NCBI RefSeq assembly: GCF_004114375.1
Contig: NZ_CP034692.1
Location: 2,914,001-2,978,000 of the forward strand
From: Halorubrum sp. BOL3-1
Lineage (GTDB): Archaea; Halobacteriota; Halobacteria; Halobacteriales; Haloferacaceae
Direction of reading: 5' to 3'
DNA length: 64,000 nt
The notes beneath the pieces are model-generated. The model ran no database searches, was not told where the DNA came from, and saw nothing but the letters and a program-made list of their open reading frames with translations. A program made the position numbers and the translations under genes. The first letter of the stretch is position 1. Each line of letters opens with the position of its first letter. Below are positions 41,323 to 61,935 of the stretch, one piece after another.

Positions 41323-43179
41323 TCAGTGGCCGTCCGAGTGTTCCGGGACTGCTTCCCCCACCGGCGTCTCTCCGTCTGGAAGCTCAGACAGTCCGAGTCG
41401 GTCAAGCAGTTGCGTTGTCGGCCGTCCCTCTCGGTCCCAATCGCGGTACGCGTAGTACCGATCGAGGAGCGTCTCGAACGCGTCGGGATCCAGTCCACCC
41501 TCCCCTCCGTCGTCCGCCTCAGTCGTCAGTGCGTCGGGGAGCGCGTCGTCGTCGCGGTCGAACCCCTCCCGGAGGTTGAATAGCCGCACGAGCGTCCACA
41601 CGCGCTCCCCGAGGAGCCGGATATCGTCAGGGTCCCGCTCGTCGCCGAGCGCGGCAAACCACTCTATGCCCGCCTCCGGACCGAAAACGTCCGCGAGAAA
41701 GTCGTCGGCGACGAGACACCAGAGCGCCGCCCGGCGGTCCTGTTCGTCGGCGACGACGGCGGCCCGCTGCTCGGGGGTCCACCTCGGGTCCGCCACGGCC
41801 TCGACCTCGACCGGGCGAGCGCGTCGATGGCAGCCGCCGCGGTCGCTCGTCGCGAACGCGAGCCCCATCGTTTCGGCGCCACGCGGGTCGTAGGAGCCCA
41901 AATCCATCCCCTTGACCGTCGGTATCAGGTCAGCACCGCCGAACCGCTCGGCGGCGGCTTCGACGCCGTCGGCCAAGGCGTCACCGAGCGACGTCGACCG
42001 GCGAGCAATCTCCTCGATCACCGTTCTCGCGGCGGTCTTGTCGCCGAAGGAGAGGTCGCGGTCGATCAGCCCCGCATCACTCGCACGGACCGCCCACGCG
42101 ATCGCGTTACCCGCGGAGATGACGTCGAGGCCGAGTCGGTCGCACGCCCCCCCGAGGGTGACGACCGCGTCGAAGTCGTCGATCCCGAGGCCGGCACCCA
42201 GAGCGATCGGAGTCCCGCCACGAGGGACGGTGTCCGTCCCGGGGGCGACGTCGTCGCGGTCGTCCTCGTCCTCGCTGCCGTCCCCGTCATCGGGGCCGGT
42301 CCCGTTACCGCTCGAAGAGACTCGAAAGCCGCCCGGAACCGAGTCGTCGGGCCGCTCCCGTTCCTCGGAACGGCCCGCCGCCTGATCGACGCCGATCTCG
42401 TCGGTCCCTTCGAAGCGGCGGCTCTGCCACCCGCGAGTCGGGAGGACGCCGGTCTCGTTCGCGAACTCGACCGTTTCCAGCGTGTCGCTGGCGGCGAGCC
42501 ACCGACCGGTGTCGCTGTCGGCGAACCGCTCCTCGTACCGGTCCCGGAGGTCGCGTAGTGCCGGCGGAATATCCGGGGCCGGATCGCGGACGACGACGGC
42601 CTTGAGCTTCTTCGCGCCCATTACCGCCCCCGCGCCCCCGCGCCCGGCGTGGTGGTCTCCGCCGTCGGAGGCGATCGTCGCGTATCGCACCCGTGCCTCG
42701 CCAGCCGGACCGATACAGGCGACGCCGGCGTCGGGAAACCGCTCGTCGGTCTCGGCCGCGTCGAGCCCGGCGAGGTCGGCCGCGGGCTCGATCGCAGCCT
42801 CGCCGTCGGCGATCGAGAGGACGACCGGTTCGTCGGCCGCACCGCGGACGACGACGCCCAGGTGGTCTCCGAGCGCTCCGGCCAGCCGGTTCGCGAACGA
42901 TCCGCCTCCGTAGGAGTCGAGAAACGCCCCTGTGAGGGGAGACTTCGTGATCGCCGCGTAGCGTGGTTCCCCGGGGAGCGAGGCCGTCAGCGGTCCGGTC
43001 ATGAACGCGAGCCGGTTCGCCGGCGACTCCGGATCGATCCCGGGTTCCATCTCGTAGAGGTATCGCGCGCCGAGCCCCTTCCCACCGACGTACATCGCGA
43101 GCCACTCGTCGGGGACCCGTTCGCTCCGGACGCGCTCGGCGGAGAGGTCAACGCGAAGGACCCGGTCGGGAACGCTCAT
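41323..43179 (-). CDS. Aldehyde ferredoxin oxidoreductase-like protein without FeS cysteines
   Basis: 618 residues from ATG 43179. AOR family: VLRVDLSAERVRSERVPDEW, YVGGKGLGARYLYE, GPLTASLPGEPRYAAITKSP and GGRGGAGAVMGAKKLKAVVV match the tungstopterin-binding N-terminal domain. After LPTRGWQSRRFEGTDEIG, where AORs carry the CxxCxxxC cluster motif, there is instead a Gly/Asp/Ser-rich linker (about residues 275-325) with no cysteines. A later cysteine in ALWCLVADDFL matches the fourth ligand position. The [4Fe-4S] cluster is therefore probably absent. Confidence 0.8.
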   Translation of the reverse strand: MSVPDRVLRVDLSAERVRSERVPDEWLAMYVGGKGLGARYLYEMEPGIDPESPANRLAFMTGPLTASLPGEPRYAAITKSPLTGAFLDSYGGGSFANRLAGALGDHLGVVVRGAADEPVVLSIADGEAAIEPAADLAGLDAAETDERFPDAGVACIGPAGEARVRYATIASDGGDHHAGRGGAGAVMGAKKLKAVVVRDPAPDIPPALRDLRDRYEERFADSDTGRWLAASDTLETVEFANETGVLPTRGWQSRRFEGTDEIGVDQAAGRSEERERPDDSVPGGFRVSSSGNGTGPDDGDGSEDEDDRDDVAPGTDTVPRGGTPIALGAGLGIDDFDAVVTLGGACDRLGLDVISAGNAIAWAVRASDAGLIDRDLSFGDKTAARTVIEEIARRSTSLGDALADGVEAAAERFGGADLIPTVKGMDLGSYDPRGAETMGLAFATSDRGGCHRRARPVEVEAVADPRWTPEQRAAVVADEQDRRAALWCLVADDFLADVFGPEAGIEWFAALGDERDPDDIRLLGERVWTLVRLFNLREGFDRDDDALPDALTTEADDGGEGGLDPDAFETLLDRYYAYRDWDREGRPTTQLLDRLGLSELPDGETPVGEAVPEHSDGH

Positions 43180-43274
43180 CACCTCATCCCTCGCGGTCGA
43201 GCCGGATTAAACCACACGCCGAGGCGCGACCCGATCCGTCGCCACGATCGACGCGCTTTCGACGCCGGAGACGG
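43180..43274. promoter_or_regulatory. Divergent promoter region AOR-like / yqeC
   Basis: 95 bases between divergent starts at 43179 and 43275. GGATTAAACC (about 43202-43211) is a possible box for the minus-strand gene about 25 bases before its ATG. Nothing distinct was seen for yqeC. Confidence 0.3.
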
Positions 43275-44018
43275 ATGGGATCGGATATGAACGAGCTCGT
43301 GGAGGCGCTCGCCACGGCCGACGGAACGACTTGTCTCGTCGGTGCGGGCGGAAAGAAGACGACGCTGTACGAGCTTGCGGACCGGCTCGATCGGGCGATC
43401 CTCACAGCGACGGTGCGGATCCCGATATTCGACCGGAAGGTCGCCGCAGTTCGGGTAACGAGCGATCCGATCGCCGCGCTCAAAGACGCGGACGACAACC
43501 AGTTTCCGCTCGGACTGGTTCCGGAGCGCGAGCGCGACGACCGGTACCGGGGGTACGAACCCGCGATCGTCGACGGCCTCGCGAGCGCTCACGACGGACC
43601 GGTCCTGGTGAAAGCCGACGGGGCTCGGACACGACTCCTGAAGGCGCCGAACGACCGCGAGCCGCAGATACCTCCCGAAGCGGACACCGTGGTTCCGGTG
43701 GCGAGCGTCGGGGCGGTCGGCAAATCGTTGTCCTCGGAGGTCGTCCACCGGCCCGAGCGCGTCGCGGCGATCACCGACGCCGAGATCGGCGACGAGATTA
43801 CCCCGAAACTGGTCGGACGCGTCCTCGCCGACGAGCGTGGCGGATTAAAAGGGATCCCGGCGGACGCGAGGCCGATCCCGCTAATAAACGCGGTCGACGA
43901 CGCAACCGACGAGACGGTCGCGCGGGAGATCGCGGCAGTCGTTCACGACCGTGCCGACGTGCCGCTGGTCGTCCTCGCGCGGATGATCGAGGGGGAAATC
44001 GTCGACGTCCTCGAATGA
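43275..44018 (+). CDS. yqeC: YqeC-like molybdenum/selenium hydroxylase accessory protein
   Basis: 247 residues. P-loop-like CLVGAGGKKTTLYELAD (about 20-36), VLVKADGARTRLLKAPNDRE (about 108-127) and the ending PLVVLARMIEGEIVDVLE match YqeC, an accessory factor known near selenium-dependent molybdenum hydroxylases in bacteria. No selenium genes are visible here. The divergent AOR-like gene suggests a joint role with a tungsten or molybdenum enzyme. ATG 43287 is an alternative start. Confidence 0.75.
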   Translation: MGSDMNELVEALATADGTTCLVGAGGKKTTLYELADRLDRAILTATVRIPIFDRKVAAVRVTSDPIAALKDADDNQFPLGLVPERERDDRYRGYEPAIVDGLASAHDGPVLVKADGARTRLLKAPNDREPQIPPEADTVVPVASVGAVGKSLSSEVVHRPERVAAITDAEIGDEITPKLVGRVLADERGGLKGIPADARPIPLINAVDDATDETVAREIAAVVHDRADVPLVVLARMIEGEIVDVLE

Positions 44019-44151: not shown

Positions 44152-45534
44152 CTAGTTGTCCGATTCAGCCTCCTGCTTCGCGCTGAGTTTTGCCTGTTCG
44201 CGGGCGCTCGGGTTGACAGACTCCTTGAACGGGATCTCCGCGGCGCTGGCGAACACCGGCTCGCCGGGCTCCTCGGCGTACTCGTCGGGCAGATGGACCT
44301 CGAACTCCAAATCGAGGTTCTCGTCGTACACCGAGTCGTCCAGCGGGACGTCGGTTTCGGCTTCGATCATCTCGGCGGGCACGAACCCCATTCCGATGTT
44401 GGTCTCGAGTTCGGGGTTGTACCACGGCGATGTCAGGTAGCCGACCTCGTCGCCGCTTTCGGGATCGGAGATGAGCCAGAAGTCCGATGCGTAATCGTGG
44501 ATCGGCTCACCGGCCATCTTCATCCCGATCATCTTGTGATTGAACGGGTAGTCGCCGTTCTCGATTTGCGCTTTCTGCTCTTCGAGCGCCTCCTTGCCGA
44601 TGTAGTCGACGTCCTTGTCGTCGGGGACGTGGTAGCCGAGATTCACCTGGAACGGAGACGTCTCGTGGTCGAGGTCCTGCCCCCACGACATGATGCCCGC
44701 GGCGATCCGGCGGTGGTGACCGGGAGCGATCTGCATGCCGCCGTGGTCGATGACGCTCTCGTGCACCGGGTCCCAGACCCGCTCAGCGTACTTCGAGGCC
44801 TCCTTCACGTAGATCTCGAAGCCCTTTTCGCCGGAGAAGCCGGTCTGGCTGATGAGCACGTCGACCCCGTTGACCTGCGACTCCATCAGACCGTAGTAGG
44901 GGATCTCGCTGACCTCCTCGCCGACGACGTCAACCATCACGTCCTCGGAGAGCGGCCCCTGGATCTGCATCGGAGCGACGTCGATCTCGTCGATCTCGAC
45001 GTCGAAGTCCATACCGACGTTGACGCCCTGTATCCACTGCATCAGCGTGTTGTCCGAAATGGAGAACCAGAACTCGTCCTCGGCCGGCCGGAGGAGCACC
45101 GGGTCGTTCAACACGCCGCCGTCCTCGTTACAGAGGATGACGTACTTGCCGTCCATCGCGTCCATGGAACTCACGTCGCGGGTGACGACGTGGTTGGTAA
45201 GCGCCTCGGCGTCGGGGCCCTTCACACGGATCTGGCGCTCGACGGCGACGTCCCAGATGGTCACGTCGTTGGTCAGCGCCTCGTACTCGGCCATGGCGCC
45301 CCCGTCTTCCGGTTCGACCAGCCCGCGTGGGTGGTAGAGGCGGTTGTAGACGGTACACCGCCAGGCGCCGTTCTCGTTGAACGACTTGTCGAAGAACGGC
45401 GACTTGCGGACGCGCGTCGAGACGAGCATCTCAATCCCCGGATCTCCGGTCTGCCTGAGGTTTCGGGGGAGCGTACGATCTGACTGGTCAACACTTGGGC
45501 AATTTGGATGTTCCTGCTCGTGAACCATTCTCAT
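44152..45534 (-). CDS. DmdA/GcvT-like THF-dependent demethylase
   Basis: 460 residues of the GcvT superfamily. Features shared with DMSP demethylase DmdA: RKSPFFDKSFNENGAWRCTV, YNRLYHPRG, LTNDVTIWDVAVERQIRVKG, VTRDVSSMDAMDGKYVILC, GGVLNDPVLLRPAEDEFWFS, IQGPLSEDVM, SQTGFSGEKGFEIYV and GIMSWGQDLDHETSPFQVN. The family moves methyl or methylene groups from substrate to tetrahydrofolate. Glycine-cleavage partners are absent but THF enzymes abound nearby. The ATG at 45534 is about 25 bases after a TATA box; 45429 (MLVSTRVRKS) is the alternative start. Confidence 0.78.
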   Translation of the reverse strand: MRMVHEQEHPNCPSVDQSDRTLPRNLRQTGDPGIEMLVSTRVRKSPFFDKSFNENGAWRCTVYNRLYHPRGLVEPEDGGAMAEYEALTNDVTIWDVAVERQIRVKGPDAEALTNHVVTRDVSSMDAMDGKYVILCNEDGGVLNDPVLLRPAEDEFWFSISDNTLMQWIQGVNVGMDFDVEIDEIDVAPMQIQGPLSEDVMVDVVGEEVSEIPYYGLMESQVNGVDVLISQTGFSGEKGFEIYVKEASKYAERVWDPVHESVIDHGGMQIAPGHHRRIAAGIMSWGQDLDHETSPFQVNLGYHVPDDKDVDYIGKEALEEQKAQIENGDYPFNHKMIGMKMAGEPIHDYASDFWLISDPESGDEVGYLTSPWYNPELETNIGMGFVPAEMIEAETDVPLDDSVYDENLDLEFEVHLPDEYAEEPGEPVFASAAEIPFKESVNPSAREQAKLSAKQEAESDN

Positions 45535-46509: not shown

Positions 46510-48960
46510 CTACTCCGCCGACCCGTCTTCGGCGGGTGGATCGGCGGCCAGCTCGGCGGTCCGCACCGCCGCGACGTTCTCCTCGACGTCGTGTACCCGA
46601 ACGATGTCTACCCCTCGGTCGACCGCTAGCGACGTCGCCGCGAGAGTCGCGGGAAGGCGGTCGTCGGAGGTCTCGCGCCCGGCGAGACCGAACATCGACT
46701 TGCGTGAGTGGCCGACGAGCACCGGACAGCCGAGCGCGCGGAACTCGTCGACCCGGCCCAGGAGTTCGAAGCTCTCGGCGGCGGACTTCCCGAAGCCGAT
46801 TCCCGGGTCAACGACGATCTGCGAGCGGTCTAACCCGGCCTTCTCCGCTAAGAGCACCCGTTCGGAGAGCGCCTCCAGCGTGTCGCGAACGACGTCGTCG
46901 TACTCCACATCGGCGTCCGGGTCGACCGGCGTCTCGATCGAGTGCATCACGACGACCGGGACGTCGTGTTCGGCGGCGACCAGCCGCATCTCCGGGTCTT
47001 CGAGCCCCGAGACGTCGTTAAGTATGTCGGCGCCGACCGAAAGCGCCGCCCGCGCTACCGCGGCTTTCCGCGTGTCGATCGAGACGAGGGCGTCGAGGTC
47101 GGACAGCGCCTCGACGACCGAGCGCACGCGTTCGACCTCTTCGTCGACCGGCACGGGATCGGCGCCCGGCCGGGTGGACTCTCCGCCGACGTCAACGATG
47201 TCGGCACCGGCCTCGACCATCGCCTCCGCGCGGTCGACGGCGTCCTCGCGGGCCTCGAAGCGTCCGCCGTCGTGAAACGAGTCCGGCGTGACGTTCAACA
47301 CGCCCATGACGGCGGTTCCGGACGCCCACGGATAGGGGGCCTCCGGTCCCGTCTCGGATGTGTCTCCGGGGTCTAGGGTCTCTCGCAGCTCGTCGCTCAC
47401 GACTCCGAGCCCGTGAGGCCCGTCGTCGAGCCTGTCGAACGCCTGCCGGAACTGCCTGACCGTCCCCATCAGCACCGCGTCGACTGGCTCGCGCCCCCGC
47501 GTGGAGAACCCGGAGAGGGCACACTGGCCGCCGACCGATAGGAACGCTCGCCTGAGGTGACCGGCCTGTCGAGGCGGAAGGCGAGTCGTGACGACCCGGG
47601 TCACCCCGTCCTCACGCGTCCGGCGAACCCCGTCGGCGTCCACGTCAGCGGCTTCGAGGACCGCGTCGGCAGTTTCGAGATCACCGACGCGCCGGGGGAC
47701 GCCCAATCGTGACCACCGAGGGCGGGCATCCGCGACGACCCGCAGCGACCCACAGATCAGTACGGCGTCGGCCGCGTCGGCGGCCGAAACCGCGGCGTCG
47801 ACGGCGTCGGCGACGGAGCCTCGCGCGGTGACGTCGGCGGCGCCGCCGAACGACGACGCGAGTACCCCGGCCGTCTCCGCCCGGTCGAGGTCCGGACGGC
47901 AGGTGTGGATATAGTCGGCGTCCGGCAGCGCCGCCACCATCTCCGAGAGGTCCTTGTCGGACATCGCGCCGAAGACGAGATGGAGCGAGTCAAACTCGAA
48001 CGTCGAGAGCGTCCCGGCCAGCGCCTCGCAACTTCCCGGATTATGTGCGCCGTCCAGCACGACGAGCGGATCCCGCTCCATCACCTCGAAGCGGCCCGGC
48101 CAGTGTGCGTTCCGGAGGCCGCGCTCGATGGCAGCGGGGGAGACCGCGTCGAACTGCCGGGCCAGCGCCGCGGCGACGCCGGCGTTGCGGACCTGGTGCT
48201 CGCCCAACACCGGGAGGTACGTCCCCGTCGACCAGTCGTCGGACGCCAGCCCGACCGCCTGTTCGAGACCCTCGCGGCCGCGGTTCGTCACCCGGAGGTC
48301 GGCGTCGTCGGTCTCGCCGATCACGTAAGTGTCGGCGACGGACTCGACGGCCGACAGCGCCGACCCGGTCGCGGCGGTGACGAGCGGCGCGTCAGCGGGG
48401 GCGACGGCGGCCAGGTCGCGTGCGATTTCCCCGACGGTGTCACCGAGCATCTCCGTGTGTTCAAGCGAGACGCTCGTGACCGCTGCGGCGTCGGTACTGA
48501 GCGCGCTCGTCGCGTCGTAGCGGCCGCCGATACCGACCTCGAGCACGGCGACGTCCGCGTCCGCGCGGGCGAACGACCAGACGGCAAGCGCCGTGAGGGC
48601 CTCGAAGAACGTCGGCGGGTCGCCCGCGGTCGCCCGGTCGTTCACGTGCGACTCCACGCGCTCGACGAACTCGGAGACGGCCCGTTTAGAGACCCGCCGA
48701 CCGTTGATGTGGACCCGCTCCCTGACGTCGTTCAGGTGGGGAGACGTGTAGAGACCGACGTCGTACCCGGCCTGCCGCAGCACGCTCTCGACCATCCGAG
48801 CGGTGCTCCCCTTCCCGTTCGACCCCGCCACCTGGATCACCCGTAGCCCCTCTTCGGGCCCGTCGAGGTGCGCAAGCAGGTCCTGCGTCGACTCGATACC
48901 CTCGGCCGGCGGGTACCGACGGAGGTCGAAGAGGAAATCCGCTGCCTCGTGGTATCTCAT
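46510..48960 (-). CDS. folCP: Folylpolyglutamate synthase–dihydropteroate synthase fusion
   Basis: 816 residues from ATG 48960 (MRYHEAADFLFDLRR). Residues about 1-420 are FolC/MurE-type ligase: VIQVAGSNGKGSTARMVESV, TSPHLNDVRERV, VLEVGIGGRYDATS and LDGAHNPGS. Residues about 540-800 are FolP: MGVLNVTPDSFHDGG, DIVDVGGESTRPGA, DILNDVSGLEDPE and VGHSRKSMFG. Haloarchaea are known for this fusion, which joins dihydropteroate formation to glutamylation. The segment between (about 430-540) is a less conserved linker. Confidence 0.93.
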   Translation of the reverse strand: MRYHEAADFLFDLRRYPPAEGIESTQDLLAHLDGPEEGLRVIQVAGSNGKGSTARMVESVLRQAGYDVGLYTSPHLNDVRERVHINGRRVSKRAVSEFVERVESHVNDRATAGDPPTFFEALTALAVWSFARADADVAVLEVGIGGRYDATSALSTDAAAVTSVSLEHTEMLGDTVGEIARDLAAVAPADAPLVTAATGSALSAVESVADTYVIGETDDADLRVTNRGREGLEQAVGLASDDWSTGTYLPVLGEHQVRNAGVAAALARQFDAVSPAAIERGLRNAHWPGRFEVMERDPLVVLDGAHNPGSCEALAGTLSTFEFDSLHLVFGAMSDKDLSEMVAALPDADYIHTCRPDLDRAETAGVLASSFGGAADVTARGSVADAVDAAVSAADAADAVLICGSLRVVADARPRWSRLGVPRRVGDLETADAVLEAADVDADGVRRTREDGVTRVVTTRLPPRQAGHLRRAFLSVGGQCALSGFSTRGREPVDAVLMGTVRQFRQAFDRLDDGPHGLGVVSDELRETLDPGDTSETGPEAPYPWASGTAVMGVLNVTPDSFHDGGRFEAREDAVDRAEAMVEAGADIVDVGGESTRPGADPVPVDEEVERVRSVVEALSDLDALVSIDTRKAAVARAALSVGADILNDVSGLEDPEMRLVAAEHDVPVVVMHSIETPVDPDADVEYDDVVRDTLEALSERVLLAEKAGLDRSQIVVDPGIGFGKSAAESFELLGRVDEFRALGCPVLVGHSRKSMFGLAGRETSDDRLPATLAATSLAVDRGVDIVRVHDVEENVAAVRTAELAADPPAEDGSAE

Positions 48961-49453
48961 ATCATGCCGAGTGGGGCGAACGGTTAATGCGTTTTTCCCC
49001 GGCCGCGGTCGGAGCCGCTTGGACGGGACGGTCCGGAGACAGTAATTTCGGACTGTGAGGCCCACAAAGCCGGAAATGGCGAAGATCACGACTGACCGAC
49101 AGCCGGCGAACGGCCGCTGCCGGAACGGCCGAAGGCCGTCGGGGACGGCGGGAGAACGAGACCCAGTCGTCGGACGTTCTGTCGTTTAATTGTCTATTCG
49201 TGGAACCGATCCTCCATCGGTCACTGAACTGGTATATCCGGATGCGAGGCATTCGGGGGGACCGCCGCCGTAGTAGCGAGAGCGTGGCATGCGAGAGATC
49301 ATGGCGAGCGAGAGACGGTGGGTCAAGAACCGGCGACCGTCCCGACGGTCGGACGGACAGGGGCAACATATCACGATCGTTGTTGATCGTTCAGCCGGCG
49401 CCCGTCGGAACCGACCGGCCCCAGACAAAACGAAACCGATCGGACGTGTGCCC
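48961..49453. other. Intergenic stretch without recognisable features
   Basis: 493 bases between folCP (minus) and the SnoaL-like gene (plus). Only low-quality arginine-rich frames. CGTTTAATTGTCTATTCG (about 49183-49200) is a possible promoter element. CGATCGTTGTTGATCG (49374-49389) is a small inverted repeat 65 bases before the SnoaL-like start. Confidence 0.4.
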
Positions 49454-50018: not shown

Positions 50019-50912
50019 CTACGGGAGCTCGACGTCGACGCCCGACTGGAGGCTGGCGGCCTTCGTCGTGTTGTACATGAGCATCGCGATAGTGAGCGGG
50101 CCGACGCCGCCGGGAACCGGCGTGATGGCCGACGCCTTTCGTTTCGCGCTCTCGAACTCGACGTCGCCGACCAGTTCGTATCCTTTCTCGGTATCGGCGT
50201 CGACCCGATTGACGCCGACGTCGATGACGACGGCGCCCTCTGCGAGCATCGATCCGTCGATCATCTCCGGAACGCCCGCGGCGGCGATGACGATGTCGGC
50301 GGCCCGGGTCTTCGCCGCCAGATCGGCGGTTCGGGAGTGACACACCGTCGTCGTGGCGTTGCCGTCCGGCGCCTTCTGTAGCAACAGGTTCGCCATCGGC
50401 TTGCCGACGATGTCCGACCGGCCGACGACGACGGCGTCTTTCCCCTCGGTGTCGACATCGGCGGCCGCGAGGAGTTTCTGTACGCCGTGGGGCGTACACG
50501 GCTTGTAACGCGCGTCACCGGCAACTAACCGACCGACGTTCTCAGGATGGAAGCCGTCGACGTCTTTCATCGGGTCGATACACCGGAGGATCCGCCGAGT
50601 GTCGACGTGATCGGGAACCGGCATCTGGACCAAGATCCCGTGGACCGAAGGGTCCTCGTTCAGTTCCTCGACTCGGTCGAAGAGCCGTTCGGCGGGCGCG
50701 TCGGCGTCGATCTCGTGATGGTAGCTTTCGATGCCGAGATCCTCGCAGGCCCGCTGTTTCATCGAGACGTACGTCTCGCTCGCCCCGTCGTCGCTCATCA
50801 GCACCGTCGCCAACCCCGGTGTGACCCCCGTGTTCGCGAGGGTCGTCACGCAGTCGCCGACGTCGGCCCGGATCCGATCTCCGATCTCGTTCCCGTCGAT
50901 TATCGTTGTCAT
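50019..50912 (-). CDS. folD: Methylene-THF dehydrogenase/cyclohydrolase
   Basis: 297 residues from ATG 50912. Interconverts methylene-, methenyl- and 10-formyl-THF with NADP. Motifs: SETYVSMKQRACEDLGI (catalytic Lys in YVxxK), HGILVQMPVPDHV, PMKDVDGFHPENVGRL, PCTPHGV, VVVGRSDIVGKPMANLL and TPVPGGVGPLTIAMLM. All family landmarks are intact. Together with fhs, fdhA and metF it completes a THF one-carbon route in this region. Confidence 0.95.
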   Translation of the reverse strand: MTTIIDGNEIGDRIRADVGDCVTTLANTGVTPGLATVLMSDDGASETYVSMKQRACEDLGIESYHHEIDADAPAERLFDRVEELNEDPSVHGILVQMPVPDHVDTRRILRCIDPMKDVDGFHPENVGRLVAGDARYKPCTPHGVQKLLAAADVDTEGKDAVVVGRSDIVGKPMANLLLQKAPDGNATTTVCHSRTADLAAKTRAADIVIAAAGVPEMIDGSMLAEGAVVIDVGVNRVDADTEKGYELVGDVEFESAKRKASAITPVPGGVGPLTIAMLMYNTTKAASLQSGVDVELP

Positions 50913-51194
50913 GGTGATGTCTTCGTGGTCGGTTGCGGCCGGAGCACACCGACGGAACGCTTCGGCTCCCGCCGAGACGCGGTTTCCCGCTATACTGATT
51001 CCCCCGGACGTATAGTCGGAGACGGGGAATAGTACGGGTATTGAAACCCCACCGGGTTCCACATCGGTTGTGTGACAATTTATGTTTCAACTGCGAGGAT
51101 CACCATCTAACGGAATGTTTTTATTGAGACATTAGCTATCTGAGACAACAGTTTCGAGCGACCGATCACGGTCCCCGAGAGATGATCACCCCGA
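50913..51194. promoter_or_regulatory. Divergent promoter region folD / pabB
   Basis: 282 bases. GACAATTTATGTTTC (51072-51086) and GGAATGTTTTTATTGAG (51112-51128) are AT-rich boxes suited to the plus-strand gene at 51195 or a distal start; TATACTGATTCCCC near 50990 may serve folD. No open frame of interest. Confidence 0.35.
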
Positions 51195-57202: not shown

Positions 57203-59356
57203 TCAGTCGTCGGCGGGCGCGGCGTCCGACGGCTCGACGGAGACCTCGATCTCGGCTGCTGCGGCCTTGTACTCGGGGATCTTCGCCCGCTCGTCGAGGA
57301 CGTTGTTCGTGAGGACGTTCGCCGACGCCGCCGCGAAGTGCGGCGTCGTCCAGACGACGCCCTCCTTGATCTCGTCGGTCACGTCCGCGCGGACCCGGAT
57401 CTCTCCACGACGCGACTTGAGCGTCACGTAGTCGCCGTCCTCGATCCCGTACCGCTCGGCGTCGTTCGGGTGGACGTCGACGAAGTTCTCCGGGTGCTGG
57501 CGGGACAGCGTGGGCGACCGCCGACTCATCGTTCCCGTGTTGTAGTGTTCCTCCAGCCGGCCGGTGGTGAGCACCAGCGGGTACTCCTCGTCTGGGACCT
57601 CCTTGGGCGGCTGGTGTCGGACCCCCTCGATCTTGCCGAGGCCGTTCTCGGTGTCGAACGAGTCCTCGTACAGGAAGGGATCGCCCTCGTCGCCCGGCTC
57701 GTAACAGGGCCAGTGGACGCCCTCCTCGCCGAGCAGGTCGTAGGTCATGCCGTGGTAGATCGGACACACCTGCCGCAGTTCTTCGAAGACCTCCTCCGGG
57801 TCGTCAAAGTCGAAACCGTCGGGGTCGCCCCCGTTCGCTCCCTCTCCGAACAGGCGCGTGCCGACCTCACAGAGGATGTCGAGGTCGTGTTTGGTGTTCT
57901 CGTGTACTTTGTGGGCCGGTCGCATTCGCTGAACGCGGCGGTCGGTGTTGGTGACGGTCCCGCCGCGCTCGGCCCACGTCGTTGCTGGGAGGACGACATC
58001 GGCGAGCTCGGCGGTCTCCGTCATAAAGATGTCCTGTACGCAGAGGAACCCGAGTTCGTCCTCGATTCGCTCTTCGACCTCGTTGGCGTCGGGTTCGCTC
58101 ATCACAGGGTTTTCTCCCATGATGTACAGCCCGTGGACGGTGTCGCCGATAGAGTTCGATATCTCGACGTTCGTGAGGCCGGGCTCCGGCGGAACATCGA
58201 AGCCCCACACCTCCTCGACCGACTCCCGGGCCTCGTCGTCGTCGACCAGCTGGTAGCCGGGGAGGACGTTCGGCATCGTTCCCACGTCGCTGGCCCCCTG
58301 CACGTTGTTCTGGCCGCGCAGCGGGTTCACGCCAGTGCCCGGCCGCCCGACGTTGCCCGTCATCAACCCGAGGTTGATCTCGTTTTGGACGTTGTCGACG
58401 CCGCAGGTGTGCTGGGACATCCCCATCCCGGTGAAGATGGCCGCGTTGTTGGCCATCGCGTACTTCTCGGCGGCGAGCTCGATGTCCTCGAGCGGGACGC
58501 CGCACTCCTCGGCGGCGGCCTCCTTGTCGAACCCCTCTAGGGTCTCCCTGAGGTGCTCGAAGCCCTCGGTGCGCTCGTCGATGAACGCCTCGTCGATCCA
58601 GCCCGCCTCGGGGTTCGCCTCGTGTTTCTCGAGGACCGTCTTGATGACGACGTTCAGGAGCGGGATGTCGGTCCCCGGCTTGGGCTGGAGGTGCATGTGG
58701 CGGTCGGTCTCGTCGATCTGGAACGACCGCGTCGTCTTGTTGGCGTGGGGGTCGACCTGGATCACCGTCGCGCCCTCCAGGACCGCCTGCCGGAAGTACT
58801 GGCTGTTGGCGATGGGATGCTGTTCGCCGGGGTTCGCGCCCTGGATCCAGAAGACATCGGCGGCCTCCTCGAGGTCGGCCATCGAGTTCGTCATCGCGCC
58901 CGCCCCGAGGCTGGTCCGGAGCGCCCACACTGTCGAGGCGTGACACATCCGCGTACAGTTGTCGACGTTGTTCGTCCCGTAGCGGCGGGCGAGCTTCTGG
59001 ATGAGGTAGTTCTCCTCGTTCATCGTCTTCGAAGAGCCGAAGAATCCCATCGCGTCCGGACTGTACTCGTCGCGGACGCGCTCGAGCTCGTCGACGACGT
59101 ACGAGTACGCCTCCTCCCAGGTGGCCTCCCGGAACTCGCCGTCCTCCTTGATGAGCGGGTCGGTCAGCCGATCCTCGTGGTTTACGACCTCCGTGGCGGC
59201 ACCGCCCTTGATACAGATGCTACCCTCGTTGACCGGGGCGTCCGCCCACGGCATGAACTGTACGTCTCCCGGCTCGTCGCCCTCGCGGACCTTGATCCCG
59301 CAGCCGACGCCACAGTACGGACAGATCGTCTTGACCGGTTCGTCGTCAGTCGACAT
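57203..59356 (-). CDS. fdhA: Formate dehydrogenase alpha subunit
   Basis: 717 residues. Molybdopterin oxidoreductase: [4Fe-4S] cysteines 12, 15, 19 and 48 (TICPYCGVGCG; GSICIKGG), molybdenum/tungsten ligand Cys138 in NCTRMCHAST, GANPGEQHP, GMGMSQHTCGVDN, LRGQNNVQGASDVGTMPN and TGRLEEHYNTGTMSRRSP in the C-terminal cofactor domain. The cysteine replaces the selenocysteine of some homologues. Shorter than NuoG-type fusions, with no extra ferredoxin domain. No beta subunit is adjacent, so the electron acceptor is unclear. Expected to oxidise formate from the THF pathway. Confidence 0.9.
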   Translation of the reverse strand: MSTDDEPVKTICPYCGVGCGIKVREGDEPGDVQFMPWADAPVNEGSICIKGGAATEVVNHEDRLTDPLIKEDGEFREATWEEAYSYVVDELERVRDEYSPDAMGFFGSSKTMNEENYLIQKLARRYGTNNVDNCTRMCHASTVWALRTSLGAGAMTNSMADLEEAADVFWIQGANPGEQHPIANSQYFRQAVLEGATVIQVDPHANKTTRSFQIDETDRHMHLQPKPGTDIPLLNVVIKTVLEKHEANPEAGWIDEAFIDERTEGFEHLRETLEGFDKEAAAEECGVPLEDIELAAEKYAMANNAAIFTGMGMSQHTCGVDNVQNEINLGLMTGNVGRPGTGVNPLRGQNNVQGASDVGTMPNVLPGYQLVDDDEARESVEEVWGFDVPPEPGLTNVEISNSIGDTVHGLYIMGENPVMSEPDANEVEERIEDELGFLCVQDIFMTETAELADVVLPATTWAERGGTVTNTDRRVQRMRPAHKVHENTKHDLDILCEVGTRLFGEGANGGDPDGFDFDDPEEVFEELRQVCPIYHGMTYDLLGEEGVHWPCYEPGDEGDPFLYEDSFDTENGLGKIEGVRHQPPKEVPDEEYPLVLTTGRLEEHYNTGTMSRRSPTLSRQHPENFVDVHPNDAERYGIEDGDYVTLKSRRGEIRVRADVTDEIKEGVVWTTPHFAAASANVLTNNVLDERAKIPEYKAAAAEIEVSVEPSDAAPADD

Positions 59357-59546
59357 GCGGTATCGCCTCGTGTTTGTGAATCATCACATAACGCTTTGGA
59401 CGGCGACGATCATGAATCTTTATTCTGTTGTCTGAATCTCCAATGAGACGGACGTTCGCGACGGATCCGAACCCAGAATGTTAGTCGCTCGATAGGTTGT
59501 GTCGAGGACCGGAGCCACTTTTGTCGCGTCGGACGATGGAGGGAAC

Positions 59547-60116
59547 ATGGATCTCACGCCTGCGGTCGTCGAGACGGCACGAGAGGAGTACCCCGATCGG
59601 CAACCGCTCTCGGCGGTCGAAACTGAGCACCTCGAGCTGCTGCCGGCGGCCTTCGAGAGCGGCGACTTCGGCTGGCGGGACGCCGAATGGGTCGTCCAGT
59701 GGTACTACCGGCGGTTCCTCGGTGAGGTCTCGGACGACCGGCGGCGCGCCGCAGAGGACGCGTACGCCGAGAACGACGCCGAAGCCGTTCGGGACGCCAT
59801 CGCGGCCGCCGCCGCGGCCGAGGATGCGGCCGAAGGACTGGAACGCCTGACGGCGCTTTCGGGCGTCGGCGTCGCGGTCGGGTCTGCGTTCCTGCAGTTC
59901 CTCGACCCCGAGGCGTACGTCGTCGTCGGCCGACGCGAGTGGCGGACGCTCCGCGCCGCCGGCGAACTCGACGCGGCGTATCCCGACCCGCCGACGACGC
60001 GGGAGTACGAGCAGTACCTGGAAACCTGCCGGAGGGTCGCCGAGCGCTGTGGCTGTTCGCTCGTCGACCTCTACTGCGCGCTGTGGGTTCTGGGTGCCGA
60101 CCGCACGGCGGAGTGA
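59547..60116 (+). CDS. Conserved haloarchaeal protein, helix-hairpin-helix-like
   Basis: 189 residues from ATG 59547. Mostly helical. The segment LERLTALSGVGVAVGSAFLQ followed by FLDPEAYVVVGRREWRTLR resembles the helix-hairpin-helix plus adjoining region of base-excision glycosylase folds, but there is no catalytic Lys/Asp pair that I can identify. Function unknown. Divergent from fdhA. Its last codons are duplicated just downstream (60106-60153). Confidence 0.7.
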   Translation: MDLTPAVVETAREEYPDRQPLSAVETEHLELLPAAFESGDFGWRDAEWVVQWYYRRFLGEVSDDRRRAAEDAYAENDAEAVRDAIAAAAAAEDAAEGLERLTALSGVGVAVGSAFLQFLDPEAYVVVGRREWRTLRAAGELDAAYPDPPTTREYEQYLETCRRVAERCGCSLVDLYCALWVLGADRTAE

Positions 60117-60216: not shown

Positions 60217-61935
60217 TTAGAACAGCCCGCTGATGTTGCCGTCGTCGTCGATGTCCATGTCGGCGGCGGCGGGGTCGGCCGGGAGGCCGGGCATGGTCAG
60301 CGCGTCGGCGGTCAGCGCGACGATGAAGCCGGCGCCCGCGGAGGGGTACACCTCGCTGATCTCCAACTCCCAGCCGGTCGGCGCTCCCTTCCTGCTCGCG
60401 TCGTCGCTGAGCGAGTGGAACGTCTTGGACATACAGACCGGCACGTCGTCGAATCCGAGGCCGTTCATGCGCTCGATGTCGTCCAACGCGCCGCCGGTGA
60501 ACTTGACGCCGTCCGCGCCGTAGATCTCCGTGGCGACGGTCTCGATCTTCTCTTTGATCGGGGCCTCTTGATCGTAGAGGAACTCGAAGTCGTCCTCGTC
60601 GCTCGCCTCAACGGCGTCGATGACGTTTTCACCGAGGTCGACGCCGCCCTCGCTGCCCTTCTCGAACACCTCGGACTCGGCCACTCGTACCCCGAGGTCC
60701 TGCTCGCAGTGGTCGATCACCGTCCGGACCTCCTCGTCGGTGTCGTCCGGGAACCGGTTGACCGCGACGACGACCGGGACGCCGAACTGCTGGAGGTTCG
60801 AGACGTGTTTGTCCAAGTTCTCGAACCCACGTTCGATGGCCTCGATACCGGCGTCGTCGATGGCGTCGAAGTCCGCCGGCCACATCCCCTCGCCGTGGTA
60901 CTTCAGCGCCCGGACCGACGACACCATGACGACCGCGTTCGGCGTCATATCCCCGAGCCGGCACACGATGTTCATGAACTTCTCGGCGCCCAGATCGGAG
61001 CCGAAGCCGGCCTCGGTGACCAGGTAGTCGCCCATCCCGAACGCCGCCTTGTCCGCGATGAGGGAGTTCGTACCGTGCGCGATGTTGGCGAACGGGCCGC
61101 CGTGGATGAACGCGGGCGTCCCCTCGATGGTCTGGACGACGTTGGGCTTGATCGCGTCTCGGAGCAGCATCGTGGCCGGGCCGGTCGCGTCAATGTCGTC
61201 GACCGTGACCGGGTCGCCGTCCTCGTCGTACGCGAGGATGATGCGGCTGATGCGCTCCTTGAGGTCGCCCAGGCCGTTCGCCATACAGAGCGCGGCCATG
61301 AGTTCTGAGGCGGCAGTCAGTAGGAAGTTATCCTCACGGGGTGTTCCCCCGCTCTTACCGCCGAGACCGACCACTAGGCTCCGGAGCGCGCGATCGTTCA
61401 TGTCGATGGCCCGGGGCCACCGGACATCGGTGACATCGACGTCGAAGTCCTCGTCGCCCGTCAGCTTCGCGTCGAGCATCGCCGAGATGAGGTTGTGCGC
61501 CGAGGTGAGCGCGTGTAGGTCGCCGGTGAAGTGCAGGTTGATGTCCTCCATCGGAAGCACCTGCGAACGCCCCCCGCCGGCGGCGCCGCCCTTGACGCCG
61601 AACACCGGCCCGAGCGAGGGTTCGCGGATCGCGATCATCGCTTCCTCGCCGAGATGATTCAGGCTCTGTCCCAGTCCGACGGTCGTGACCGTCTTGCCCT
61701 CCCCCTTCGGGGTCGGCGTCATCCCGGTGACGAGCACGAGGTTGTTCTCGCGCTCCTCGGCCTCGTCTCGGAGCCGGTCGATGGCGTGGTGTTTGACCTT
61801 CGCCGTGTACTCGCCGAAGTACTGGAGGTCGTCGAGGCCGAGGCCCCACGGCTCGACCAGCTCCCAGATCGGCTCCATCTCGGTCGACTGCGCGATGTCG
61901 TAGTCCGTCGGTATCGGCTCACCAGTGTCCGTCAT
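60217..61935 (-). CDS. fhs: Formate–tetrahydrofolate ligase
   Basis: 572 residues. Interconverts formate, ATP and THF with 10-formyl-THF. P-loop TPTPKGEGKTVTTVGL (about 72-87), REPSLGPVFGVKGGAAGGG, INLHFTGDLHALTSAHNLI, RDNFLL-like REDNFLLTAASELMA, VTEAGFGSDLGAEKFMNI and VVVAVNRFPDDTDEEV are all standard. In archaea this enzyme is patchy and was probably acquired from bacteria. In the catabolic direction it yields ATP and formate for FdhA. Confidence 0.95.
   Translation of the reverse strand: MTDTGEPIPTDYDIAQSTEMEPIWELVEPWGLGLDDLQYFGEYTAKVKHHAIDRLRDEAEERENNLVLVTGMTPTPKGEGKTVTTVGLGQSLNHLGEEAMIAIREPSLGPVFGVKGGAAGGGRSQVLPMEDINLHFTGDLHALTSAHNLISAMLDAKLTGDEDFDVDVTDVRWPRAIDMNDRALRSLVVGLGGKSGGTPREDNFLLTAASELMAALCMANGLGDLKERISRIILAYDEDGDPVTVDDIDATGPATMLLRDAIKPNVVQTIEGTPAFIHGGPFANIAHGTNSLIADKAAFGMGDYLVTEAGFGSDLGAEKFMNIVCRLGDMTPNAVVMVSSVRALKYHGEGMWPADFDAIDDAGIEAIERGFENLDKHVSNLQQFGVPVVVAVNRFPDDTDEEVRTVIDHCEQDLGVRVAESEVFEKGSEGGVDLGENVIDAVEASDEDDFEFLYDQEAPIKEKIETVATEIYGADGVKFTGGALDDIERMNGLGFDDVPVCMSKTFHSLSDDASRKGAPTGWELEISEVYPSAGAGFIVALTADALTMPGLPADPAAADMDIDDDGNISGLF

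Follow-up and report, generated by a model that had tools for sequence, protein, structure and literature searches.

The gene at positions 41323..43179 on the minus strand of the window (the whole stretch of 64,000 nucleotides from Halorubrum sp. BOL3-1 that was analysed here) encodes a 618-amino-acid protein that is a WOR by descent and fold, yet fails the cluster and catalytic features of the family. It belongs to a haloarchaeal clade in which the [4Fe-4S] ligands and the active-site glutamate were lost on a single ancestral branch, whereas several cofactor-facing residues are invariant, and the clade gene accompanies the genes for YqeC and formate dehydrogenase (FDH) across haloarchaeal genomes. 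A WOR that lacks the cluster, keeps its cofactor-facing residues, and is linked to both YqeC and FDH can reasonably be proposed to handle the FDH cofactor.

A WOR fold without cluster ligands or catalytic glutamate

The open reading frame runs through 618 codons with no internal stop, an in-frame GTG at 43182 providing an alternative start. Its product matched AFOR_N (4.9e-62, 209.7 bits) and AFOR_C (8.2e-88, 295.6 bits), both above the Pfam gathering scores, and no other Pfam domain at E ≤ 0.001, so that the assignment to the AOR family made in an earlier, sequence-only reading of this DNA was borne out. The solved chains nearest in sequence were also WORs, including 1aor and the Haloferax volcanii WOR83 (9q1t). 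The predicted structure (mean pLDDT 84.3, pTM 0.87, with pLDDT < 50 at residues 251–264 and 291–321) has the three-domain WOR fold, with TM-scores on the query of 0.82–0.83 and Z-scores of 42.6–43.6 against 1b25, 9mqx, and 1aor. VIA Z-scores against WOR chains were 36–44, with an rmsd of 3.0–3.4 Å over 552–571 residues, and the structure-search matches ranked beneath the WOR chains were weak.

We take the cluster ligands of WORs to be Cys288, Cys291, Cys295, and Cys494 (Pfu numbering), and their pterin motifs to lie around Asp338–Asp343 and Asp489–Cys494. Orthologues were compared in an alignment with 75 rows for the clade and 11 for others, from which proteins shorter than 540 amino acids, identical copies, L004 (the same gene as L003), and the broken half L096_2207 were omitted; the model alignments A1 and A2 held 57 and 42 sequences. 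The triad Cys288, Cys291, and Cys295 was absent from 75 of 75 orthologues but present in all four sister haloarchaeal WORs and in 22 of 22 other WORs. In the window translation, CxxCxxxC is indeed gone after LPTRGWQSRRF, as had been noticed from the letters alone. The fourth ligand position, Cys494, is occupied by Asp in 74 orthologues and by Val in one, and the active-site Glu311-Tyr312-Glu313 has become Arg-Gly-Ala/Gly/Ser, with Ala (52), Gly (14), or Ser (9 of 75) at the position of Glu313. In the window copy, these replacements, seen in both the alignment and a column scan, are Asp492 (41704..41706, minus strand) and Arg320-Gly321-Gly322 (42214..42222, minus strand). At Asp489, in the second pterin motif, 74 of 75 orthologues have Trp, which is less telling because this position varies in other WORs too. 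The sequence-only reading had held that all pterin-domain landmarks remain; the changes at Cys494, Glu313, and Asp489 contradict this, and with the Fe-S-side pterin motif (Asp489...Cys494) altered, bis-pterin binding may be impaired. The column scan returned 17 columns that were conserved at ≥80% in the 22 other WORs and at <10% in the clade. Seven of these were Cys288, Cys291, Cys295, Glu311, Tyr312, Glu313, and Cys494, and the four sisters all carry the ancestral residue at all seven.

The cofactor-site residues described for WorL are Thr243, Glu313, Tyr427, and His448 (PMC13328260). In the clade, Thr243, Asp343, Tyr427, and His448 are invariant in all 75 orthologues, the last being His451 in the window copy according to the alignment (41827..41829, minus strand), and Arg76 is retained in 68.

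In the window copy, CxxCxxxC and the residues that follow it, up to the Arg at the Glu311 position, are replaced by residues 278–320 (42220..42348, minus strand), a Gly/Asp/Ser/Glu-rich stretch that overlaps one of the two low-confidence parts of the model. The acidic linker that the first reading described is therefore present here, but as a general replacement of the cluster motif it was rejected. The distance from the former Cys288 to PRG is 42 residues in the window and reaches 63 at the longest, whereas it is exactly 19 in 48 of 75 orthologues, typically as PGGFRV..GESVPRG. Because the long acidic versions occur mainly in Halorubrum, and because this site is modelled in the compact orthologue L055 (mean pLDDT 81.1) as a short, low-confidence hairpin at most, the long stretch is a short loop that expanded in particular lineages, mainly in Halorubrum. 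Such expansions are common in acidic haloarchaeal proteins.

Single origin and selection on the remainder

We searched 391 genomes of the class for homologues and scanned genome_contigs once, which identified a large haloarchaeal orthologue group with approximately 52–81% identity to the window protein, the closest relatives being those of Halorubrum. Haloarchaeal orthologues of at least 50% identity lacked CxxCxxxC, whereas matches at 31–33% identity contained it, and two further WOR genes in the window's genome, at C3:2696825 and C3:454095, also retain the motif (CSSCAFAC and CHSCPVAC). In the tree, which included 22 of the 75 clade members and has long branches elsewhere and an uneven letter make-up, the cluster-less proteins formed one clade, set on a long stem and supported at 100/100. 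Pairwise dN/dS within the clade was approximately 0.2 (0.152/0.646 for the window copy versus Halorubrum lipolyticum). Together, the ancestral residues of the sisters, the fully supported branch, and the low dN/dS show that the loss of the redox centre took place on a single ancestral branch and that the remainder has stayed under purifying selection. The sequence-only reading had proposed examining whether loss of the Cys triad marks a conserved subfamily, and it does so throughout this clade. A frameshift, mis-assembly, or decaying gene, which the low-complexity insert exactly at the motif site might call to mind, was rejected as virtually impossible, since no orthologue has the motif and most carry a short conserved replacement, and since the clade is fully supported with low dN/dS. 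Some copies of the clade gene appear to be interrupted by a split frame or one in-frame stop (L091, L094, L096, G132, G364, and G134), through either decay or sequencing error.

Beyond the haloarchaea, no cluster-less relative was found in a small sample (L101, L103, L105–L110, and L152–L160), all members of which have CxxCxxxC. The reading of loci L111–L140 covered 19 of 30, on one strand only. The sister WORs (L146–L149) show 39–42% identity over the whole length, and DSYSGG and HHAGRGG are common to both groups. Tyr for Asn93 and His for Ala183 were consequently rejected as marks of cluster loss, because the cluster-bearing sisters already have these motifs. Unlike the clade, the sisters retain CxxCxxxC, PEYE, and Cys494, and their neighbours, as far as examined, encode an aldo-keto reductase, a PAPS reductase domain, an amidase, and others, with YqeC and FDH not among them. 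The cluster-bearing sister gene lies between genes for a PAPS-reductase-domain protein and an aldo-keto reductase at L147:4251–8184 and also in L146 and L149, which is a different, conserved setting.

A 2026 classification of 4,064 WorL sequences reported that the cofactor and cluster residues vary very little (PMC13328260). Against this reported near-invariance stands a whole WOR clade without [4Fe-4S] ligands, which goes unmentioned in the sections of that paper compared here. Among the papers listed by our literature searches, none described the cluster-less clade or YqeC alongside haloarchaeal FDH.

Association with YqeC and formate dehydrogenase

In the window, the divergent neighbour of the clade gene encodes YqeC (43275..44018, plus strand; TIGR03172, 161 bits, cut-off 73). 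The FDH alpha subunit (57203..59356, minus strand; TIGR01591, 735 bits in the genome search, cut-off 666) is encoded 14 kb from the clade gene, inside a one-carbon group that we treat as context only. This group consists of genes for a GcvT/DmdA-like aminomethyltransferase-family protein (44152..45534, minus strand), a FolC-FolP fusion (46510..49089, minus strand), a FolD-like methylene-THF dehydrogenase/cyclohydrolase (50019..51062, minus strand), chorismate-binding and glutamine-amidotransferase proteins, and a formate-tetrahydrofolate ligase (60217..61935, minus strand). A gene for an OGG-like putative 8-oxoguanine glycosylase (59499–60116) adjoins that for FDH.

The neighbourhoods were examined in 70 stretches (69 genome_contigs loci and the window) with tblastn at 1e-20, a threshold that may admit other Mo oxidoreductases. 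By this measure, YqeC was encoded near the clade gene in 41 of 70 loci, an FDH alpha-like protein in 40, and at least one of the two in 61; of the nine loci with neither, several are short contigs. In L083 and L066, the FDH-like neighbour scored above the TIGR01591 cut-off, whereas that in L053 is a divergent Tat-type form (451 bits, cut-off 666). In a hand count of the 41 first-batch genomes with a listed position, 31 had YqeC ≤5 kb from the clade gene. MobA-like, MoaA, NarJ/TorD-type chaperone, FdhB-like, NuoF-like, and HdrA-like proteins were also recurrent near the clade gene, as was an NrfD-like protein, which was named by eye and has no Pfam match.

Several further families recur at these loci. 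A 711-residue HdrA-like Fe-S protein with Fer4 and FlpD (L064:14155–16290 and 17 other loci, cluster c3) is encoded beside Tat-type FDH in many haloarchaea. A family of 185–336 residues with no Pfam match recurs beside FDH in 12 of 70 loci (cluster c8), and a DUF7124 protein is encoded directly after the clade gene (L053:14573–15481; cluster c5, 17 of 70 loci, median distance 0) and may be co-transcribed with it.

Co-occurrence was counted over whole genomes. Clade-positive genomes were chosen by E-value (<1e-150, or split matches of approximately 1e-94 to 1e-116) rather than by an individual reading of the triad, with four left out. The clade-negative set, taken from genomes listed by the homologue search, comprised 19 that had only other WORs and 19 without any match, those with in-between E-values being set aside; its counts come from a repeat search in which every candidate was scored. 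None of the counts are corrected for phylogeny or for the choice of genomes. YqeC was detected in all 122 clade-positive genomes (42/42 and 80/80) versus 16 of 38 clade-negative genomes, with a Fisher p of 4e-17 that ignores both phylogeny and genome choice. An FDH alpha subunit above the TIGR01591 cut-off occurred in 116 of the 122 (42/42 and 74/80) versus 21 of 38. Six clade-positive genomes thus seemed to lack FDH, an impression that was rejected when a divergent Tat-type FDH-like subunit was found in all six, this form having been searched for in the clade-positive set only. In four of them (G010, G099, G120, and G234), the Tat-type FDH-like gene lies near the clade gene together with those for YqeC, a TorD-like protein, and an HdrA-like protein. 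At L164, another ORF masked the clade gene in the gene map, and the clade gene was placed via the orthologue locus L075 and the match position in G234.

Strict dependence of FDH on the clade protein was rejected on the same counts, because FDH is present in those 21 clade-negative genomes. Fourteen of the 38 have both FDH and YqeC above cut-off with no clade protein, seven more have FDH with no YqeC above cut-off, and some of the clade-negative FDHs score like those of clade-positive genomes. Since FDH and YqeC occur together without it, the clade protein is not generally required and can be no more than one solution among several. FDH-alpha-like genes were also observed in tandem pairs, of which one member exceeds the TIGR01591 cut-off and the other falls far short of it (G080:C4, G330:C3, G363:C96, G181:C2, G149:C11, G283:C23, and G121:C24); some of the pairs are in genomes with no YqeC or clade gene, and a different enzyme is perhaps involved.

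A possible role in FDH cofactor supply

In E. coli, FdhD sulfurates the FDH cofactor and has also been proposed to carry it (PMC10609526). The same 2023 review points out that halobacteria often have FDH with fdhD absent and asks how, and by which proteins, cofactor insertion and sulfuration then proceed. Our searches agree with this absence: two FdhD models gave no match in 80 haloarchaea, with positive results in 8 of 14 control genomes, and the FdhD-NarQ domain (PF02634) had no match in G000 at E ≤ 0.01.

For YqeC, the constant partner, an accessory function in selenium-dependent Mo hydroxylases has been proposed (PMC2276186); deleting it in C. difficile produced no clear phenotype (PMC11448449). 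A selenium role for the clade-linked YqeC is unlikely, because true SelD is missing in 75 of 80 genomes; in G000, the best match scored 67.2 bits against a cut-off of 125. The five genomes with true SelD (G016, G051, G053, G083, and G084) each have two YqeC copies, one adjoining SelD and the other adjoining the clade gene, which probably reflects a split into selenium and non-selenium YqeC. The presence of YqeC in many SelD-less haloarchaea suggests that it has a job without selenium.

We tentatively favour, at somewhat short of an even chance, a decommissioned WOR that serves the FDH cofactor together with YqeC where FdhD is absent. With all four [4Fe-4S] ligands and Glu-Tyr-Glu lost, the ancestral WOR would have left redox service on one branch, keeping its fold and part of its cofactor pocket (Thr243, Asp343, Tyr427, His448, and mostly Arg76). 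The protein is predicted still to bind a Mo/W-pyranopterin cofactor or one of its intermediates, and would perform no aldehyde chemistry; with YqeC, it might hold, modify (e.g. sulfurate), or pass this cofactor to FDH without FdhD. Of the ideas raised in the sequence-only reading, a regulatory or cofactor-carrying paralogue agrees best with the clade-wide loss of the ligands and Glu, the invariant pocket residues, and the tracking of YqeC and FDH, although both binding and role are putative. The broader proposition, that haloarchaea swapped FdhD for a cofactor module composed of a WOR without cluster or catalytic Glu, as a putative Mo/W-pterin carrier, and a selenium-independent YqeC, is possible but rather unlikely.

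The conserved pocket also bears on what else the protein could be. A cofactor-free pseudoenzyme, in which the WOR fold would serve as a scaffold or regulatory subunit for FDH, its chaperone, or YqeC with no metal or pterin, would account for the loss of all cluster ligands, the catalytic Glu, and the second pterin motif, and for the same YqeC/FDH gene linkage. We nevertheless consider it unlikely, because a mere scaffold has no need of cofactor-facing Thr243, Asp343, Tyr427, and His448, which are invariant. Invariant His448, Tyr427, and Thr243 in the pocket, and the one-carbon genes around the window copy, would suit a non-redox Mo/W enzyme whose reaction (hydration, lyase, or transfer) involves no net electron transfer, perhaps in the adjoining one-carbon pathway. 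This is improbable, given that the active-site Glu is gone and that one-carbon genes are close by at some loci only (8 of 70 for formate-THF ligase), the constant companions being YqeC and FDH. The sequence-only reading had also raised another electron path, whereby a redox enzyme would pass pterin electrons directly to a partner such as FDH subunits or the nearby HdrA-like or ferredoxin-like proteins; HdrA-like and Fe-S proteins are found close to the gene in 18 and 7 of 70 loci, respectively. That suggestion has become very doubtful, because Glu311-Tyr312-Glu313 was lost together with the cluster; the Fe-S neighbours, moreover, are missing at most loci, and the FDH gene sets account for them.

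The cluster-less WOR and YqeC are two candidates for cofactor handling in fdhD-less halobacteria, both of which could be deleted in a tractable haloarchaeon, and YqeC gains a selenium-independent setting.

The clade can be compared with three known systems. Like the WOR-family enzymes (P. furiosus AOR, 1aor, and FOR, 1b25; H. volcanii WOR83, 9q1t), its members have both AFOR domains, the whole fold, and Thr243, Tyr427, His448, and Asp343; unlike them, they have no [4Fe-4S] ligands, no Glu313, and no Cys494, and are constantly linked to YqeC and FDH. With the YqeC/SelD selenium-cofactor trait (Haft and Self 2008), the clade shares YqeC (TIGR03172) as the constant partner, whereas just 5 of 80 genomes have true SelD above the cut-off. 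FdhD, finally, is unrelated to the clade protein in sequence, the latter matching only AFOR domains; the likeness would lie solely in the proposed job, the supply of a prepared cofactor to FDH (for the role of FdhD, see PMC10609526).
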